64,000 nucleotides of DNA from Haloarcula halophila (lineage in GTDB: Archaea; Halobacteriota; Halobacteria; Halobacteriales; Haloarculaceae), in the NCBI RefSeq assembly GCF_029278565.1, contig NZ_CP119559.1, forward strand, positions 1,798,001 to 1,862,000. Direction: 5' to 3'. Numbering within the stretch: the stretch's first letter is position 1; each line of letters starts with the position of its first letter. The position numbers and the translations under genes were made by a program. Positions 37,751 to 45,425 of this stretch are shown piece by piece. Under the pieces are notes generated by a model that was not told where the DNA came from, did no database searches, and worked only from the letters and a program-made list of their open reading frames with translations.

Positions 37751-40700
37751 ATGCGGGAGGCAGACGAACAGTACTTCGAAACCCTGGAGGACGAACTCGA
37801 CCGGGCGATGGCCGTCGCCGAGCGCGCCCGCGAGCGCGGCGGTGACCCGAAACCCGAGGTCGAGATCCCGACCGCCAGGGACATGGCCGACCGGGTCGAG
37901 AACATCCTCGGCATCGACGGGGTCGCCGAGCGGGTCCGCGAACTGGAGGGGGAGATGTCCCGCGAGGAGGCCGCCCTGGAACTCGTCGAGGATTTCGTCG
38001 AGGGGACCGTCGGCGACTACGACACCCGCGAGGGGAAAGTCGAGGGCGCGGTCCGGACCGCCGTCGCCCTGCTGACCGAGGGCGTCGTCGCCGCCCCGAT
38101 CGAGGGGATCGACCGCGTCGAACTGCTGGAGAACGACGACGGGACGGAGTTCATCAACGTCTACTACGCCGGGCCGATCCGCTCGGCCGGCGGGACCGCC
38201 CAAGCGCTGTCGGTGCTGGTCGCCGACTACGCCCGCGCGCTGCTGGACATCGACCAGTACAAGGCCCGCGACGACGAGGTCGGTCGCTACGCCGAGGAGA
38301 TCGACCTCTACGACAAGGACACCGGCCTCCAGTACTCGCCCAAGGAGAAGGAGACGAAGTTCATCGCCGAACACATGCCGATCATGCTCGACGGGGAAGC
38401 CACCGGCGACGAGGAGGTCTCGGGCTACCGGGACCTCGAACGGGTCGACTCGAACTCCCCGCGGGGCGGGATGTGTCTGGTGCTCGCGGAGGGAATCGCG
38501 CTGAAGGCCCCGAAGATCCAACGGTACACCCGTAATCTCGACGAGGTCGACTGGCCGTGGCTCCAGGACCTCATCGACGGGACCATCGGAGCGGACGACG
38601 ACCAGGCAGAGACCTCGGACGACGGGAGCGACGACGCGGACGAGGGCGAGGGAGCCGACACGGACGAGGGCGAGGGAGCCGACGAACCGGCCGGGCCACC
38701 CCGTGTCGACCCAGCCACGAAGTACCTCCGGGACCTCATCGCCGGCCGACCGGTCTTCTCCCATCCCTCCAAACCCGGCGGCTTCCGGCTGCGGTACGGA
38801 CGGGCACGCAACCACGGGTTCGCGACCGCCGGCGTCCACCCGGCGACGATGCACCTGGTCGACGACTTCCTGGCGACGGGGACACAGATCAAGACCGAGC
38901 GGCCGGGGAAAGCCGCCGGGGTCGTCCCCGTCGACACCATCGAGGGGCCGACCGTCCGCCTGGCCAACGGCGACGTTCGCCGCATCGACGACGCCGAGGA
39001 GGCACTGGCGGTCCGAAACGGCGTCGAGAAGATCCTCGATCTGGGCGAGTATCTGGTCAACTACGGCGAGTTCGTCGAGAACAACCACCCGCTCGCGCCG
39101 GCCTCCTACACCGTCGAGTGGTGGGAGCAGGACCTCGACGCGGCGGGGGCGGACGTCCAGGCGATGCGGGACGACCCGACGGTCGACCTCGCCGACCCGA
39201 CCGCCGACCAGGCGCTGCGTTGGGCCACGGAGTACGACGCGCCGCTACATCCGGCCTACACCTACCTCTGGCACGACGTGAGCGTCGACGAGATGGGGGC
39301 ACTGGCCGACGCGATCGAGGACGGACAGGTCGCACAGACCGACGGCGCCGTCCTCGAAGACGGGGTGCGGGCGGCCGACGGCGACCTCGTCCTCCCGCGG
39401 ACCGACACCGTCCGGACCGCACTGGAGCACCTGCTCGTCGAGCACACACAGGAGTCCGACAGGCTCGTCGTCTCCGACTGGCTCCCGCTTGTCCGGACGC
39501 TCGGCTTTTCGCGCTCGCTGGAGCGTGACTGGACGCTCGACGACCTCTCGGAACACGCCCGGCGCTACGGAACCGGCGAGTCCGTCGAGGCCATCGGCGC
39601 CGCCGACGAGACCCTCGACGAGGGGGCGAACGCCGTCGAGGCGGTCAACGAGGTCGCTCCCTTCGAGGTCCGGGAACGGGCACCGACCCGCGTCGGTAAC
39701 CGGATGGGTCGCCCGGAGAAGTCCGAGCGGCGGGACCTCTCGCCGGCGGTCCACACTCTCTCGCCCATCGGCGAGGCTGGCGGCGCCCAGCGGGACGTGG
39801 CCAAGGCGACGAAACACGCCGACTCGATGAGCGAGACGCCGGGCCGCGTCGAGGTCGAAGTCGCCCGGCGGCGCTGTCCCGCCTGTGGAACCGAGACCCA
39901 CAAGGCCCGCTGTCCGGACTGTGACACCGTCGCCGAGACGGTGTACGTCTGCCCCGACTGCGAGGCCGAGGTCGAGCCCGACGAGTCCGGCCGCGCGGAG
40001 TGTTCCCGGTGTGAGACGCTCGCCTCGCCGACCCAGTACACCGAACTCGACCTCCAGGCGACCTACCGTGACGCGCTCGAATCGGTCGGGGAGCGCGAGA
40101 CGGCCTTCGAGACGCTGAAAGCCGTCAAGGGACTCACCTCCGCGGAGAAACTACCCGAGCCGATGGAGAAAGGGATCCTCCGGGCGAAACACGACGTCTC
40201 GGCGTTCAAGGACGGCACCGTCCGCTACGACATGACCGACCTGCCGGTGACCGCGGTCCGGCCCGCCGAACTGGACGTCGAGGCCGACCGCCTGCGGGCG
40301 CTGGGCTACGAGACGGACATCCACGGCGACCCGCTGACCCACGACGACCAGCTTGTCGAACTGAAAGTCCAGGACATCGTTCTCTCTGACGGCGCTGCCG
40401 AGCACATGCTCAAGACCGCCCGGTTCGTCGACGACCTCCTGGAGCAGTACTACGGCCTGGAGCGGTACTACGAGTTCGACGACCGCGAGGACCTCGTCGG
40501 GGAACTGGTCTTCGGGATGGCACCACACACAAGCGCGGCGACGGTGGGCCGCGTGGTCGGCTTCACCTCGGCGGCGGTCGGCTACGCGCACCCGTACTTC
40601 CACGCCGCCAAGCGCCGGAACTGCTTCCACCCGGAGACGCGCCTGTGGCACGGCGAGGGCGGCGATTGGTCGTACGGGTCCATCGCCGACCTCGTCGAGC

Positions 40701-41908
40701 GACACCTCACTGACCCCCGCGAGGACGAGTTCGGAACGCTCGTCTCCGAGGTCGAGACCGATCTGGTGGTCCCGTCGCTGGGGCCGGACGGTCCCTGTCG
40801 CAAGCAGGTCGAGGCCGTCTCGAAACACCCCGCCCCGGACCACCTCGTCCGCATCGAGGTCGGCGAGCGGACGCTCCGGGTGACGCCGGACCACACGATG
40901 CTCCGGACCGGGTGGGACGGAATCGAGGAGGTCCGCGCGTCGGAGATCGAGGCCGGCGACGAACTGCCGGCCTACGACGGCGGCGAGACGACGATGGCCG
41001 GGACTGGGGAGACCGCAGCGGCCGACGGCGGGAGCACTGTCCCGACCGACACCGTGACCGACGTGAGCTACGTCGGGAGCGACGTCGAACACGTCTACTG
41101 TCTCACGGTCGCCGATACGCACCGTCTCGCCGTCGAGGGCGTCTACACCTCGCAGTGTGACGGCGACGAAGACTGCGTGATGCTGTTGATGGACGGCCTG
41201 CTGAACTTCTCGCGGAAGTACCTCCCGAACCAGCGGGGCGGCAGGATGGACGCCCCCCTGGTGATGTCCTCCCGGATCGACCCCAGCGAGATCGACGACG
41301 AGGCCCACAACATGGACATCATGGAGTCGTATCCCCGCGAGTTCTACGAGGCCACCCGGGAGCTGACACCCCCCGAGGAGGTCGAGGAGATCATGACCAT
41401 CGCCGAGGAGACGCTGGGGACCGACCGGGAGTACACCGGCTTCCGGCACACTCACGACACCACCGACATCGCCGCCGGGCCGGACCTCTCGGCGTACAAG
41501 ACGCTGGGGTCGATGGAGGACAAGATGGACGCCCAACTGGAGATCTCGCGGAAACTCCGGGCCGTCGTCGAGAGCGACGTCGCCGAGCGCATCATCGAGT
41601 ACCACTTCCTGCCCGATCTCATCGGGAACCTGCGGGCGTTCTCCCGACAGGAGACCCGCTGTCTGGACTGCGGGGAGTCGTTCCGGCGGGTTCCCCTGAC
41701 CGGGGACTGCCGGGAGTGTGGCGGCCGCGTCAATCTCACGGTCCACGAGGGGTCGGTCAACAAGTACATCGACACCGCGATCCGGGTCGCCGAGGAGTTC
41801 GGTGCCCGGGATTACACGAAACAGCGGTTGCGGATCCTCGAACGGTCGATCGAGTCCGTCTTCGAGAACGATCACAACAAGCAGTCTGGCATCGCCGACT
41901 TCATGTGA
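37751..41908 (+). CDS. polC: DNA polymerase D large subunit (DP2) with mini-intein
   Basis: 1385 residues as encoded, 1207 after splicing. This is the catalytic subunit of the archaeal replicative family-D polymerase. N-terminal region: ADEQYFETLEDELDRAMAVA, with YAGPIRSAGGTAQALSVLV. Zinc ribbons lie at about 705-760 (CPACGTETHKARCPDC) and near the C-terminus (CLDCGESFRRVPLTGDCREC). The active-site motif N-CDGDED is interrupted by an intein (residues 958-1135, see separate entry). An acidic linker at about 278-316 contains a 24-bp tandem duplication. The ATG at 37751 follows the PPC gene by one base. Its partner DP1 is encoded at 60201, unlinked by 18 kb. Confidence 0.96.
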   Translation: MREADEQYFETLEDELDRAMAVAERARERGGDPKPEVEIPTARDMADRVENILGIDGVAERVRELEGEMSREEAALELVEDFVEGTVGDYDTREGKVEGAVRTAVALLTEGVVAAPIEGIDRVELLENDDGTEFINVYYAGPIRSAGGTAQALSVLVADYARALLDIDQYKARDDEVGRYAEEIDLYDKDTGLQYSPKEKETKFIAEHMPIMLDGEATGDEEVSGYRDLERVDSNSPRGGMCLVLAEGIALKAPKIQRYTRNLDEVDWPWLQDLIDGTIGADDDQAETSDDGSDDADEGEGADTDEGEGADEPAGPPRVDPATKYLRDLIAGRPVFSHPSKPGGFRLRYGRARNHGFATAGVHPATMHLVDDFLATGTQIKTERPGKAAGVVPVDTIEGPTVRLANGDVRRIDDAEEALAVRNGVEKILDLGEYLVNYGEFVENNHPLAPASYTVEWWEQDLDAAGADVQAMRDDPTVDLADPTADQALRWATEYDAPLHPAYTYLWHDVSVDEMGALADAIEDGQVAQTDGAVLEDGVRAADGDLVLPRTDTVRTALEHLLVEHTQESDRLVVSDWLPLVRTLGFSRSLERDWTLDDLSEHARRYGTGESVEAIGAADETLDEGANAVEAVNEVAPFEVRERAPTRVGNRMGRPEKSERRDLSPAVHTLSPIGEAGGAQRDVAKATKHADSMSETPGRVEVEVARRRCPACGTETHKARCPDCDTVAETVYVCPDCEAEVEPDESGRAECSRCETLASPTQYTELDLQATYRDALESVGERETAFETLKAVKGLTSAEKLPEPMEKGILRAKHDVSAFKDGTVRYDMTDLPVTAVRPAELDVEADRLRALGYETDIHGDPLTHDDQLVELKVQDIVLSDGAAEHMLKTARFVDDLLEQYYGLERYYEFDDREDLVGELVFGMAPHTSAATVGRVVGFTSAAVGYAHPYFHAAKRRNCFHPETRLWHGEGGDWSYGSIADLVERHLTDPREDEFGTLVSEVETDLVVPSLGPDGPCRKQVEAVSKHPAPDHLVRIEVGERTLRVTPDHTMLRTGWDGIEEVRASEIEAGDELPAYDGGETTMAGTGETAAADGGSTVPTDTVTDVSYVGSDVEHVYCLTVADTHRLAVEGVYTSQCDGDEDCVMLLMDGLLNFSRKYLPNQRGGRMDAPLVMSSRIDPSEIDDEAHNMDIMESYPREFYEATRELTPPEEVEEIMTIAEETLGTDREYTGFRHTHDTTDIAAGPDLSAYKTLGSMEDKMDAQLEISRKLRAVVESDVAERIIEYHFLPDLIGNLRAFSRQETRCLDCGESFRRVPLTGDCRECGGRVNLTVHEGSVNKYIDTAIRVAEEFGARDYTKQRLRILERSIESVFENDHNKQSGIADFM
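38637..38684 (+). repeat. 24-bp tandem duplication inside polC
   Basis: Two copies of a unit beginning CGGACGAGGGCGAGGGAGCC, at 38637-38660 and 38661-38684, identical but for the last base. It adds eight residues (DEGEGADT / DEGEGADE) to the acidic linker, a probable slippage event. Confidence 0.7.
40622..41155 (+). other. Mini-intein within DP2 (no homing endonuclease)
   Basis: 178-residue in-frame insertion, residues 958-1135, between Asn957 and Cys1136 of the active-site motif. It starts with CFHPETRLWHGEGG (block A, nucleophile Cys), has TLRVTPDHTML (block B, T-x2-H) and VEHVYCLTVADTHRLAVEG (block F), and ends YTSQ before Cys+1. The terminal residue is Gln, not Asn, and the penultimate is Ser, not His. 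No LAGLIDADG motif is seen. Without splicing, polymerase D could not be active. Confidence 0.9.
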
Positions 41909-42179: not shown

Positions 42180-43766
42180 TTACTCGTCGCCCAGCGCGAC
42201 GTAAGTCGTCTCGATGATGCGGTCGTCGCCCTCCAGTCGGTCGAACACCTCGGCGGTTGGCTTCTCGTCCAGGTTGTAGACGGAGAGGGCCTCGCCGCCG
42301 ATGGTCTCGCGACCGTTGAACATGCCGGCGATGTTGATGTCGGCCCCACCCAGCACGCTCCCGATGAAGCCGATGGTCCCGGGTTCGTCGCGGTTACGGA
42401 CGACGAGCATGTGCCCGTGGGGGACCGCCTCGATGCGGTGATCGTCGATACGGACGATCCGGGACTCCTCGCCGGCGAACTGGGTCCCACAGACGGAGAC
42501 GGAGTTCTCGCCGTCCGAGACGGTGACGGTGAGCAGACTCTGGTAGTCCTCGGCCGAGCTGGTCTTGGATTCGGTGACGTTGATGCCCCGTTCCTCGGCG
42601 ATCTGGGGTGCGTTGACGGCGTTGACCTGGAGTTCCGACGGAGCGAAGACGCCTTTCAGTGCGGAGGCGGTGACGTACTCGACGTCCTGGTCGGCGATGT
42701 CACCGGCGTAGGTGACCCGAACCTCGGACATGTGGCCGTCGAACAGCTGGACGGCGATGCGGCCGGCGGTGTCGGCCAGGTCGAGGTACGGCCGGACTTG
42801 CTTGAACGTCGTCTCGTCGATCGAGGGGGCGTTCAGTGCGTTGGCGACCGGTTCCTCGTTGAACGCGGCGACGACCTGGTCGGCCGTCGAGGTCGCAACG
42901 TTCTCCTGGGCCGCCTCGGTCGAAGCACCCAGGTGCGGGGTGACGATGATGTCCTCGACGTCGAGCAGCGGGCTGTCGGCCGACAGCGGTTCCTCGCCGA
43001 AGACGTCCAGTGCTGCGCCCTTGAGCGGGCCGTCCGCGACGGCCTCGGCCAGTTCCGGTTCGTCGATGATGCCACCGCGAGCACAGTTGACGACGTAGCC
43101 TTCCCCGATGCGTTCCAGTTCCCCCTCGCCGATCATGTTCTCGGTCTCGGGGGTCAGCGGCGTGTGGATGGTCACGAAGTCCGCGGCCTCCAGACACGTT
43201 TCGAGTTCGTCGACGAGTTCGGCGCCGAACTGGTCGGCCCGCTCCTGGCTGATGTAGGGGTCGAACGTGACGATGTCCATCCCCAGTCCGCCGAGGCGTT
43301 TGGCGACCTCCTGGCCGACGCGGCCGAAGCCGACGACACCCAGAGTCTTGTTGTTGAGTTCGGTCCCCAGGAACTCGCTTTTGGCCCACTCGCCGTTCTT
43401 GAGGCGGTCGTGGGCCTGCGGGATCGACCGGGCGGTAGCGAACGCCATCGCGACCGAGTGTTCGGCGGCGGCCCGGACGTTGCCGTCGGGCGCGTTCGCG
43501 ACGATGACCCCGTGGTCGGTAGCAGCGTCGATATCGATGTTGTCAACGCCGATGCCGGCGCGACCGACGATGATCAGGTCGGGCGCTGCGGCGAAGACCT
43601 CCTCGGTGACCTCGGTGCCGGAGCGGACGATCAGCGCGTTCGCGTCCGCGACCGCTTCCAGCAGCGCGTCGCCCTCGACGTCGTAGGCTGTCTCGACCTC
43701 GTGGCCGGCCTCGCGGAGTCGTTCGAGGCCAGCGTCGTCGATCGGGTCCGTGACGAGTACCTTCAT
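42180..43766 (-). CDS. serA: D-3-phosphoglycerate dehydrogenase
   Basis: 528 residues, the long type. It oxidises 3-phosphoglycerate with NAD+ to start serine synthesis. Domains: substrate-binding part (1-100 and about 285-320) with VLVTDPIDDAGLERLREAGH; Rossmann domain with LGVVGFGRVGQEVAKRLGGL, then MDIVTFDPYI; catalytic VNCARGGIIDEPEL and TPHLGASTEAAQENVA; an allosteric-substrate-binding domain (about 320-450); and a C-terminal ACT domain (about 455-528: MLVVRNRDEPGTIGFIGSVL), suggesting serine feedback control. It converges with the coiled-coil gene. Confidence 0.93.
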   Translation of the reverse strand: MKVLVTDPIDDAGLERLREAGHEVETAYDVEGDALLEAVADANALIVRSGTEVTEEVFAAAPDLIIVGRAGIGVDNIDIDAATDHGVIVANAPDGNVRAAAEHSVAMAFATARSIPQAHDRLKNGEWAKSEFLGTELNNKTLGVVGFGRVGQEVAKRLGGLGMDIVTFDPYISQERADQFGAELVDELETCLEAADFVTIHTPLTPETENMIGEGELERIGEGYVVNCARGGIIDEPELAEAVADGPLKGAALDVFGEEPLSADSPLLDVEDIIVTPHLGASTEAAQENVATSTADQVVAAFNEEPVANALNAPSIDETTFKQVRPYLDLADTAGRIAVQLFDGHMSEVRVTYAGDIADQDVEYVTASALKGVFAPSELQVNAVNAPQIAEERGINVTESKTSSAEDYQSLLTVTVSDGENSVSVCGTQFAGEESRIVRIDDHRIEAVPHGHMLVVRNRDEPGTIGFIGSVLGGADINIAGMFNGRETIGGEALSVYNLDEKPTAEVFDRLEGDDRIIETTYVALGDE

Positions 43767-43852: not shown

Positions 43853-44431
43853 TCAGGGTAGTTCGGCGTCTGTCCGGGCGACCAGATCCCGTGCCCGGGA
43901 CTCGAAGGTCGCGGCGACGTCACGATGGCTGTCGGCCGCGAGGTCGTAGGAGCGGTCCGGCGGTTCACCGTCGACGACTTCCGGGAGCAAGGTATCGAAC
44001 TCGTAGCGGCGCAACCGTACGTCCGCTTCGTGGACTCGCTCCCAGACCTCGTCGGTCGGCGCGGGGAGGTCGAAGGCCGTCCAGACGGCCTCGAGGATCG
44101 CCCCTTCGATCTCTCGGTACCGCTCCAGGTGGCGCTTGACCGGAGAGACGAGGTCCGAGACGTACGCCTCGGGGGCATCGTGGAGTAGGCCGTACAACTG
44201 GATACGGGCGGACTCATCGCTCGCAGCCAGTTCGCGGCTCACGTACAGCGAGTGGAGGCCGACGCTGTAGAACTCCCGAGTCTGTCCCGAACACCGGCAG
44301 ATGTTCGAGAGGCCGTGCGCGATGTCGGCGAGTGCGATATCCTCGGGCTGTGGATCGAACGGTCTGAACTCCCGTCCGCTGACCGTGTTCATCACGGCCG
44401 CGTGGGGTTCCGAGCGAGGGGTCGGAGTCAT
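43853..44431 (-). CDS. HD-domain phosphohydrolase (YfbR-like)
   Basis: 192 residues. HD-superfamily metal site: SVGLHSLYVSRELA (first His), YGLLHDAPEAYVSDLVSPVK (HD) and a downstream EADVRLRRYEFDTLLPEV (final Asp region). Early part DIALADIAHGLSNICRCSGQ resembles nucleotidase/hydrolase relatives of YfbR. AATTTTAACC at 44453-44462 lies 26 bp before the ATG and supports this start. It is divergent from the CARF regulator gene, with 133 bp between starts. Substrate likely a nucleotide, not proven. Confidence 0.8.
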   Translation of the reverse strand: MTPTPRSEPHAAVMNTVSGREFRPFDPQPEDIALADIAHGLSNICRCSGQTREFYSVGLHSLYVSRELAASDESARIQLYGLLHDAPEAYVSDLVSPVKRHLERYREIEGAILEAVWTAFDLPAPTDEVWERVHEADVRLRRYEFDTLLPEVVDGEPPDRSYDLAADSHRDVAATFESRARDLVARTDAELP

Positions 44432-44564
44432 GGCTGTGAGAACGGGGTAGTTCTGGTTAAAATTTGTGGACCGTAGTGCTGTTGTGTGTAAATTTGTTTG
44501 TACACAGGGATCGGGACCGGGAGATGAGGAAACGCTTTCAGGGCGGGGTCACAGCACTCGACCA

Positions 44565-45425
44565 GTGAGCGAGACGATCCATCTGATCCCGGTCGGGATC
44601 GACGTCGAGCGACTGTTTTTGCCCATCACCCAGGGGGAACTGTCGGCCGACGCCGTCGTCCTCTACCGGGCGCGACGCCACAGCGACGACCGGGAGGTCG
44701 CCGATCTCGCCGAGCGGATGTTCCATCGCTTGGAGTACACCTTCGAGCGGGTGCTGGGCGCCGACGTCGAGACGGCCTTCATCGACAGCGTCCACGACTA
44801 CGAGAACGCGTACAAGACCGCATACCGGGCACTCCGGGAGCGGGTTCCCGAGAACGATGTCTGGATCAACATCTCCTCGATGCCCAGAACGGTCTCGTTC
44901 GGGTTCGCGACGGCGGCGAACACCCTGGTCAACGAACGCCCCGAGTTGCGCGACCAGGTCCACGTCTACTACGTTCCCCCGGAGGCGTATCTGACGACCA
45001 GCCTCCTGCGGGAACTGGAGACGGAACTGTCCTTCCTCAGGGACGGCGGCGATACAGACGACCGCATCGCCGAGATCGAAGACCTGCTGGAGACGGTCCG
45101 GGAGCGGGGCGTCACCACCGGCGCCCGCGAGATCGACGGGCAGCGCTACGTCGAGTTGCCCCCGGCTCCGCTGGCGGAACTCCGTGAGTTCGAACGGGAA
45201 CTGGTCGGAGTGCTCGGTGAGTCCGGCCCGACGGAGTCGACGTCGGCGCTCGCCCGGGAACTGGCCACCCGACGCGGCGAGGACGCCGACGAGTCACTCC
45301 GGAGCAAGGTCCAGTACAACGTCCGTCAACTGGAAGCGAAGGGGTTCCTCCGACGGGTCGATGTGGGCGGAAGCTACGAGACGAGACTCACGAAGATGGG
45401 GCGGCTGTGGGTCCAGACCCACTGA
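44565..45425 (+). CDS. HFX_2341-family regulator: CARF-like sensor with C-terminal winged helix
   Basis: 286 residues. N-terminal domain (about 1-150): SETIHLIPVGIDVERLFLPI with a Rossmann-like start, a central helix (DLAERMFHRLEYTFERVLGA) and WINISSMPRTVSFGFATAAN, the N-x-S-S-x-P-R-T loop typical of CARF/DUF6293 ligand pockets. A helical linker precedes a C-terminal winged helix (about 205-286: TSALARELATRRGEDADESL, KVQYNVRQLEAKGFLRRVDV). The architecture parallels Csa3-type regulators that sense cyclic oligoadenylates, but no cas gene is in this window. Start GTG 44565. Confidence 0.78.
   Translation: MSETIHLIPVGIDVERLFLPITQGELSADAVVLYRARRHSDDREVADLAERMFHRLEYTFERVLGADVETAFIDSVHDYENAYKTAYRALRERVPENDVWINISSMPRTVSFGFATAANTLVNERPELRDQVHVYYVPPEAYLTTSLLRELETELSFLRDGGDTDDRIAEIEDLLETVRERGVTTGAREIDGQRYVELPPAPLAELREFERELVGVLGESGPTESTSALARELATRRGEDADESLRSKVQYNVRQLEAKGFLRRVDVGGSYETRLTKMGRLWVQTH

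Follow-up and report, generated by a model that had tools for sequence, protein, structure and literature searches.

A CARF-winged-helix regulator divergent from an HD phosphohydrolase in Haloarcula halophila: a candidate switch related to CBASS-linked control modules

We analysed a 64,000-nucleotide stretch of the haloarchaeon Haloarcula halophila (NCBI RefSeq assembly GCF_029278565.1, chromosome-sized contig NZ_CP119559.1, positions 1,798,001 to 1,862,000; hereafter the window, in whose coordinates features are given), in which the gene for a regulator with a CARF domain and a winged helix-turn-helix (wHTH) domain (44565-45425, plus strand; 286 aa, GTG start) stands divergent from an HD phosphohydrolase gene (43853-44431, minus strand; 192 aa, ATG start) across a shared promoter region of 133 bp (44432-44564, no strand). 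Our preferred reading, in which we place about as much belief as doubt, is that the locus is a one-component, autoregulated switch controlling the HD gene and related to control modules linked to cyclic oligonucleotide-based antiphage signaling systems (CBASS). The CARF-wHTH protein, an accessory member of its family and probably a dimer, would bind a 24-bp dyad in the shared region and so set transcription of both the HD gene and its own gene, and a ligand of nucleotide type, bound in the CARF pocket, would alter DNA binding, giving a response that may be antiviral or metabolic. As the regulated output, the HD enzyme would be a 5'-(deoxy)nucleoside monophosphatase acting to reduce or rebalance (deoxy)nucleoside monophosphate pools, and would not destroy the ligand. 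Most likely the pair would represent a control module of the CBASS type that has come to serve a different enzyme.

Several lines of evidence point to such a switch: the CARF and wHTH folds together with a cyclic oligoadenylate (cOA)-type motif and a conserved, near-unique dyad; the co-occurrence of the two genes in a few genomes of the genus, divergent, at one site and under purifying selection; and the divergent partner genes of all informative accessory relatives, with dyad-like sites at two CBASS loci (Halobium and G040). The output role is suggested by the match of the HD protein to YfbR in residues and fold, and the CBASS connection by the other members of the accessory group, which lie divergent from type IV CBASS-type genes. 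Other genomes, loci and plasmid records carry G, L and H numbers below.

The regulator and the HD enzyme

The sequence-only reading of this DNA had described the regulator as DUF6293-like, with a CARF-like pocket containing NISSMPRT and a DNA-binding domain, and had placed it opposite an HD phosphohydrolase; each of these assignments is borne out. The PADLOC model CARF3--CARF (PDLC01846) matches residues 4-286 (E 3.8e-92), and the Pfam families PF19810 HFX_2341_N (1.7e-16, residues 5-142) and PF24989 DUF7776 (1.5e-8) are over their cut-offs, with PF22665 DUF6293_C (0.0053, 17.6 bits) under its cut-off of 27 bits. The protein is a CARF-winged-helix regulator of the PADLOC CARF3 type within the HFX_2341/DUF6293 superfamily. 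An AlphaFold model built from a 36-row alignment (A1) has a mean predicted local distance difference test score (pLDDT) of 91.6, and was compared with known structures by VIA-align lists, which leave other folds possible. Its CARF domain (44565-44990, plus strand; residues 1-142, PF19810) is structurally nearest to cOA-binding proteins, matching Can2, Cam1, Csm6 and others at Z 13-15; matches to Can2, Csm6, Card1 and the like extend over approximately residues 1-143. The predicted C-terminal wHTH DNA-binding domain (45162-45422, plus strand; residues 200-286) matches the haloarchaeal regulator RosR (6qfd; Z 13.8, root-mean-square deviation (rmsd) 1.4, 82 residues aligned). Csa3 (2wte, 6wxq) aligns across both domains at Z 13.2 but with an rmsd of 12.5-13.3 Å, so the two domains are probably set at a different angle in the model than in Csa3.

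The cOA-type motif N102-I-S104-S-M-P-R108 lies within NISSMPRT (44868-44891, plus strand; residues 102-109) and fits, as N-x-S-x3-R, the published definition (D/N)-x-(S/T)-x3-(R/K) (PMC8844856). It is kept in 30 of the 36 aligned rows, the other six having Ala for Ser, and N102 is present in all 36. At the position of the adenine-stacking Phe of Csa3, 32 rows have Phe, a single distant paralogue has His, and only the three window-type proteins have Ile; motif 1 of the window protein and its two orthologues reads V-G-I-D and departs from the hydrophobic-G-F-(N/D) of Csa3, a hint that the ligand of window-type proteins, or the way it is bound, may differ. The Csa3 protein of Saccharolobus, a cA4-binding CARF-wHTH protein (PMC8844856), shares with the regulator the fold over both domains, the arginine of motif 2 and the G-x-D of motif 1, whereas no CRISPR link was seen at the window locus, the Phe of motif 1 is Ile in the window clade and, going by motif offset, the Gly of motif 2 is Met.

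A relative of the regulator is present in 188 of 194 haloarchaeal genomes (E 1e-20), mostly the core protein as judged by identity and by 18 rows placed in a tree. That core protein, HFX_2341, was reported in 2024 as the core global repressor crr, a CARF-wHTH protein whose deletion alters many metabolic genes; its authors propose a messenger such as c-di-AMP and themselves raise the sensed ligand as a question (PMC11434293). The window protein is like Crr in superfamily, in its CARF and wHTH domains and in being chromosomal and away from cas genes, with approximately 40-45% identity. Crr differs in being core and vertically inherited (PMC11434293), whereas the window protein is a rare accessory paralogue with a local candidate operator and partner gene. 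It is not Crr: the core clade (18 rows, supported at 100/100) does not include it, and it scores 230.8 bits against the 500-bit cut-off of the Crr equivalog NCBIfam NF051475. The window protein groups with its two orthologues at 100/100, and this trio, together with the proteins of Halobium, G114 and G040 and eight TGT-linked ones, makes up a 14-row accessory group; the accessory rows of G107, G087 and G196 stand apart from it. The root of this tree is arbitrary, and the branching order inside the accessory group is not settled.

Accessory CARF genes occur in 11 of the 194 genomes (E<=1e-20, a threshold that more distant ones may escape). A scan of further genome contigs yielded a single relative, that of Halobium salinum, and none of 22 pattern matches in viral contigs was a relative. 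In 11 genomes what looked like a second core Crr paralogue was discarded, the aligner having broken one frame into two matches. As a separate observation, the H. halophila genome encodes a fourth PF19810 protein (L121, 6748-7488; 246 aa, 21% identical), which lies in what by eye is a leucine/isoleucine biosynthesis cluster and is possibly a CARF-like regulator of amino-acid synthesis.

The HD protein is matched by phrog_318, the PHROG family of phage deoxynucleoside monophosphate phosphatases (5.9e-47), and by PDB entry 2gz4 in a sequence search (2.7e-16); tblastn with the protein finds 240 phage records, and Pfam PF12917 reaches 18.9 bits, below its 25.9-bit cut-off. Its AlphaFold model (pLDDT 86.3) is closest to Atu1052 (2gz4, Z 24.9), followed by Pfu-403030 (10.5) and YfbR with dAMP (2pau, 10.4) or with TMP (10.3), and then by DatZ (10.3), OxsA (9.8), small alarmone hydrolases (5-7) and HD-GYP proteins (5.0). 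All 17 aligned rows, the window protein included, have R46, H60, H84, D85, E88, D93 and D137, which correspond by spacing and fold to R18, H33, H68, D69, E72, D77 and D137 of YfbR (PMC8177086; the identity of E72 was taken from a PDB title); the spacing H84-D85-x2-E88-x4-D93 equals H68-D69-x2-E72-x4-D77. Polynuclear phosphodiesterases of the HD-GYP type carry an extra active-site histidine (PMC8177086), and H60 and H84 are the sole invariant histidines here, a pattern with which mononuclear phosphodiesterases are still compatible. The residue next to R46 is Cys, so that W19 of YfbR, which excludes ribonucleotides, has no Trp counterpart, and the HD protein may not be deoxy-specific. Taken together with the missed PF12917 cut-off, this is where the protein departs from the YfbR and phage Dmp-type phosphatases, which it resembles in fold, in the R/H/HD/E/D/D residues and in their spacing. 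The model indicates that it is probably a mononuclear YfbR/phage-Dmp-type 5'-(deoxy)nucleotidase.

Conservation of the pair and its promoter region

The gene pair is narrowly distributed. We compared 32 genus genomes, 28 of which have a completeness of 90% or more and a contamination of 5% or less. All 32 keep a neighbouring CBS-domain gene. The HD gene is found in three, H. halophila itself (G000), G202 and G199, and these three are also the ones with a window-type CARF gene (83% identity or more); the two genes therefore co-occur or are jointly missing in 32/32. Across the 19 usable locus regions of 20, G202 and G199 have the pair at the same place, oriented as in the window, and the other 17 lack it. 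Conservation of the pair, on which the sequence-only reading had depended, thus holds for three species, divergent and at one site, and extends to 3/32 genomes of the genus. Nei-Gojobori omega values across the three species (0.16-0.38 for the HD gene, 0.08-0.19 for the CARF gene) indicate purifying selection on both frames, so neither of the two divergent open reading frames first proposed here, 133 bp apart, is a chance one.

Beyond the genus, a scan of the class (194 genomes) found an HD homologue in 20 genomes and an accessory CARF gene in 11, both together in the window genome only, and a scan of 391 genomes found the HD homologue in 43 (E<=1e-20). Around the HD homologues of 26 of the 42 other genomes (47 loci, often two per genome, with at least 1.5 kb on each side in most) there was no CARF match. 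By eye, 21 wider HD neighbourhoods (one of them, L107, poorly resolved) contain a SAMHD1-like HD gene, a P-loop kinase, phosphonate-type transporters, rplK, cutA, metallo-beta-lactamase hydrolases and others.

The intergenic region is 133, 133 and 132 bp long in the three species. The HD gene has a candidate TATA box, TTTTAA, preceded by CCACAAA as a candidate transcription factor B recognition element (BRE; 44457-44469 for the two, minus strand). The TATA lies 26-31 bases before the ATG, a leaderless spacing, and the block GGTTAAAATTTGTGGACCG is conserved across the three species with few changes. The sequence suggests that this block is the TATA/BRE of a leaderless HD transcript. A 24-bp dyad, TGTGTGTAAA-TTTG-TTTGTACACA (44483-44506, no strand), is a candidate operator of the CARF-wHTH protein. 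It stands upstream of both the candidate HD BRE, at 13 bp, and the CARF start, at 58 bp. The dyad reads TGTGTGTAAATTTGTTTGTACACA in the window, TGTGTGCAAAGTTGTTTGCACGCA in G202 and TATGTGCAAACTGTTTTGCACACT in G199, and is conserved with substitutions in both halves: across the three species, 25/30 pairings hold between its 10-base halves, which flank a 4-base spacer, and none of 300 permutations of the alignment columns reaches 25, the best giving 20. In G000, G202 and G199 alike, the core pattern GTGYAAANNNNTTTGYAC has its only zero-mismatch site at this locus; allowing one mismatch adds one site in G000, one in G202 and two in G199. A site upstream of the BRE is commoner for an archaeal activator than for a repressor; because the dyad holds that position, positive control of the HD gene is as likely as repression.

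With a weight matrix made from the three dyads we also searched the Crr promoter and the intergenic regions of 19 other accessory loci. Dyad-like sites were found at Halobium (0/500 shuffles), at G040 (p 0.006) and at G107 (p 0.016; a more distant clade), that is, at two of the three nearest CBASS-linked accessory loci and at 3/19 overall, and none was found in the Crr promoter at p<0.05. Since the p values are uncorrected for the number of tests, only the Halobium site is secure. In Halobium the site precedes the start of the CARF gene by 66 bases and in G040 by 64; the window distance is 58.

CBASS context of the relatives and surroundings of the pair

A divergent partner gene is present at 22/22 informative accessory CARF loci: 18 are TGT-like, three are HD genes (the window, G202 and G199), and one, at G196 (L133), encodes 385 aa with no family assigned. 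The PADLOC TGT model matched all eight TGT-like proteins scanned, from 7.4e-132 (G040) to 1.5e-7 (the locus on H. halophila contig C4), and the other ten were assigned by tblastn similarity. Eleven plasmid records have a CARF relative, five of which enter the locus count; H5 and H8 repeat the counted genomes G003 and G100 at the same coordinates, and H9 and H10 (25-27%) and a second place in H7 were left out. Including L153, a half CARF match without TGT, and L154, which begins at the CARF gene and so does not reveal its partner, would make the TGT-like count 18/24, and the near copies L124/L127/L150 and L132/L149 are not independent.

Six of the accessory loci (Halobium, G114, G040, G107, G087 and a Halomarina plasmid) also contain CD-NTase genes, whose products begin with MG (MGGG, MGNS, MGTK, MGNT), as in type IV CBASS (PMC13279940). 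Genes for 2TM-type effectors follow, identified by PADLOC in Halobium, G040 and Halomarina and by similarity in G114, G107 and G087. A scan for SMODS (PF18144) gave a match in 34 of the 194 genomes, 21 of them over the cut-off; four of these 21 (G114, G040, G107 and G087) have an accessory CARF gene, with SMODS within approximately 2 kb in 4/4, and the remaining seven of the 11 accessory-CARF genomes, including H. halophila, are outside the 34. Against solved nucleotidyltransferases the Halobium CD-NTase gives a weak match (1.8e-5), and a PDB sequence search with the Halobium TGT-like protein returned nothing useful. The relatives of the window regulator thus resemble type IV CBASS with Cap9 and Cap10 (PMC11996544, PMC13279940), being divergent from a TGT/Cap10-like gene and, at the six loci, accompanied by a CD-NTase and a 2TM-type effector. 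The window locus itself differs: tblastn (E<=1e-3) found no CD-NTase, TGT/Cap10 or effector in the window, L076 or L089, and the QueC-like gene (Cap9) was not looked for.

These arrangements can be described locus by locus. L055, L105, L106, L129, L131 and L148 are type IV CBASS-like operons of TGT/Cap10-like, CD-NTase and 2TM-type effector genes, each with a divergent CARF-wHTH gene; at L105 (5383-6602) the G114 CD-NTase gene lies in two separate frames and is apparently broken. H. halophila has a second accessory CARF gene on the 114-kb contig C4 (L123, 7488-9801), whose divergent neighbours are a TGT-like gene and one for an acidic protein of approximately 127 aa, with helicase-like and DUF262-like genes (by eye) around it and no CD-NTase nearby by tblastn. 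At L124, L126, L127 and L150 the TGT-like gene is followed by a gene for a long acidic DsbA-like protein, an assignment tested with Pfam in L126, annotated in L150 and made by eye in L124 and L127, and there is no CD-NTase there; these loci form CBASS-like modules in which no cyclase is recognised.

The H. halophila genome has no match to PF18144 (SMODS), other cyclases and c-di-AMP synthase not having been searched for, and Cas10 palm domains, as represented by PF22335 only, are found in 0/194 haloarchaea. A cyclic ligand of the window regulator would accordingly be expected from elsewhere (e.g., c-di-AMP, as proposed for Crr), or the ligand would be non-cyclic.

No cas genes had been noticed near the pair on first inspection, and this stands within the window, which has no CRISPR-like direct repeats. 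Of 10 neighbouring proteins scanned with PADLOC, nine gave no match, and the tenth, a Hef-like helicase, matches merely the helicase parts of several models; the remaining genes, inspected by eye only, did not resemble cas genes, and Cas1 was not searched for genome-wide. The pair is flanked by serA (42180-43766, minus strand), a DUF7556 gene, the CBS-domain gene and glyS, with serA and glyS named on the basis of sequence and Pfam. The serA-DUF7556 interval is a variable site: between the pair and serA, certain species have a gene for a long alpha-amylase-like lipoprotein, in place of the pair or alongside it, and across the genus this gene is present or absent (L076, 2971-6357; L079; L086; L089, 2930-6271). 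No defence genes were seen in the expanded serA-to-DUF7556 regions (L076, L077, L079, L086 and L089, with L077 seen in part). Membership of the pair in a defence island was considered and rejected, the extra DNA at the site being the alpha-amylase-like gene and 9/10 neighbours being blank in PADLOC. Elsewhere in the window, an open reading frame resembling the large subunit of DNA polymerase D (37751-41908) has a short intein-like insert from approximately residue 975, its ends placed by eye.

Competing explanations and significance

Several observations weigh against a switch controlling the HD gene. The pair is limited to 3/32 genus genomes and to one site, and although a tree of three neighbouring proteins (the window and 19 regions, with serA partial in G199) requires two changes, a single origin is not rejected (approximately unbiased test, p 0.21), so the pair may reflect one event kept by descent. 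HD homologues elsewhere occur in housekeeping-like contexts; 16 of the 19 other accessory intergenic regions, including those of G114 and the TGT-only loci, have no dyad-like site at p<0.05; Ile stands where Csa3 has its stacking Phe; and support for the accessory group is moderate (89/91), with a warning from the tree tool that long branches meet. Much of this would suit two uncoupled neighbours, the CARF protein regulating itself alone through the dyad and the HD gene being an unrelated nucleotide-salvage gene that landed there in one lineage. The CARF-free surroundings of HD homologues in 26 other genomes, their varied wider neighbourhoods (a ribosomal protein, cutA, SAMHD1-like, transporter and other genes) and a variable site where an alpha-amylase-like gene also comes and goes all agree with it, yet it leaves unexplained the joint presence or absence of the two genes in 32/32 genomes, the conservation of both the HD promoter block and the dyad, and the rule that accessory CARF genes have a divergent partner. 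We regard such uncoupling as a serious alternative, if a rather unlikely one.

Control of the HD gene could also come from a broader regulator, a Crr duplicate acting on many metabolic genes with HD as one target of many. The shared superfamily and architecture and the wide effect of crr deletion (PMC11434293) speak for this; the position of the window protein outside the core clade, its low equivalog score and the lack of a second perfect genomic site for the core dyad pattern (one site at one mismatch) make it improbable. Less credible still is the idea, put forward in the sequence-only reading, that the HD enzyme is an off switch degrading the cyclic nucleotide that the CARF protein senses. 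Dedicated ring nucleases often clear CARF ligands, and the HD superfamily includes phosphodiesterases (PMC8177086). However, fold and residues are nearer to an H...HD...D monophosphatase (YfbR, Z 10.4) than to HD-GYP (Z 5.0), the invariant histidines are limited to two, HD relatives occur without an adjoining CARF gene, and the two families tried reveal no messenger synthase in the H. halophila genome. An off switch is therefore very unlikely, the protein being of the YfbR/phage-Dmp 5'-nucleotidase type; the other half of that proposal, a role in second-messenger signalling, is made plausible by those relatives of the regulator that adjoin CBASS CD-NTases.

For the preferred reading of an autoregulated switch with the HD gene as output, we also count a bacterial precedent. 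CapW, a ligand-sensing CBASS regulator, binds a palindrome in the promoter region that it shares with a CBASS operon (PMC9122588), although it has a WYL domain and not CARF, controls a defence operon and not an HD gene, and has sites that overlap the -10 element. The literature searched, in which subscription journals are thinly covered, yielded no account of CARF regulators next to CBASS, and an earlier report is possible. Haloarchaeal CARF proteins are not named in the available excerpts of the 2014 CARF review (PMC4012209) or the 2025 CRISPR classification (PMC12669027).

CARF sensors have mostly been studied with type III CRISPR, yet 188/194 haloarchaea carry a relative and 0/194 a Cas10 palm (PF22335), and what these sensors read is a question raised by the Crr authors themselves (PMC11434293). 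The accessory group offers obvious partner operons, six loci with a cyclase by the sensor and, here, a candidate operator, which make ligand, target and control direction directly testable. As a wider conjecture, to which we give only limited credence, haloarchaeal CARF-wHTH proteins would be sensors or switches of type IV CBASS that read a CD-NTase product or an infection signal and not type III CRISPR messengers, and the window locus would descend from such a system, its CBASS operon, under an operator of this type, having given way to a nucleoside-monophosphate hydrolase that provides inducible nucleotide depletion on infection. Because relatives of the sensor neighbour antiviral signalling genes, the pair may have been taken over, as a small switch, from antiviral defence.

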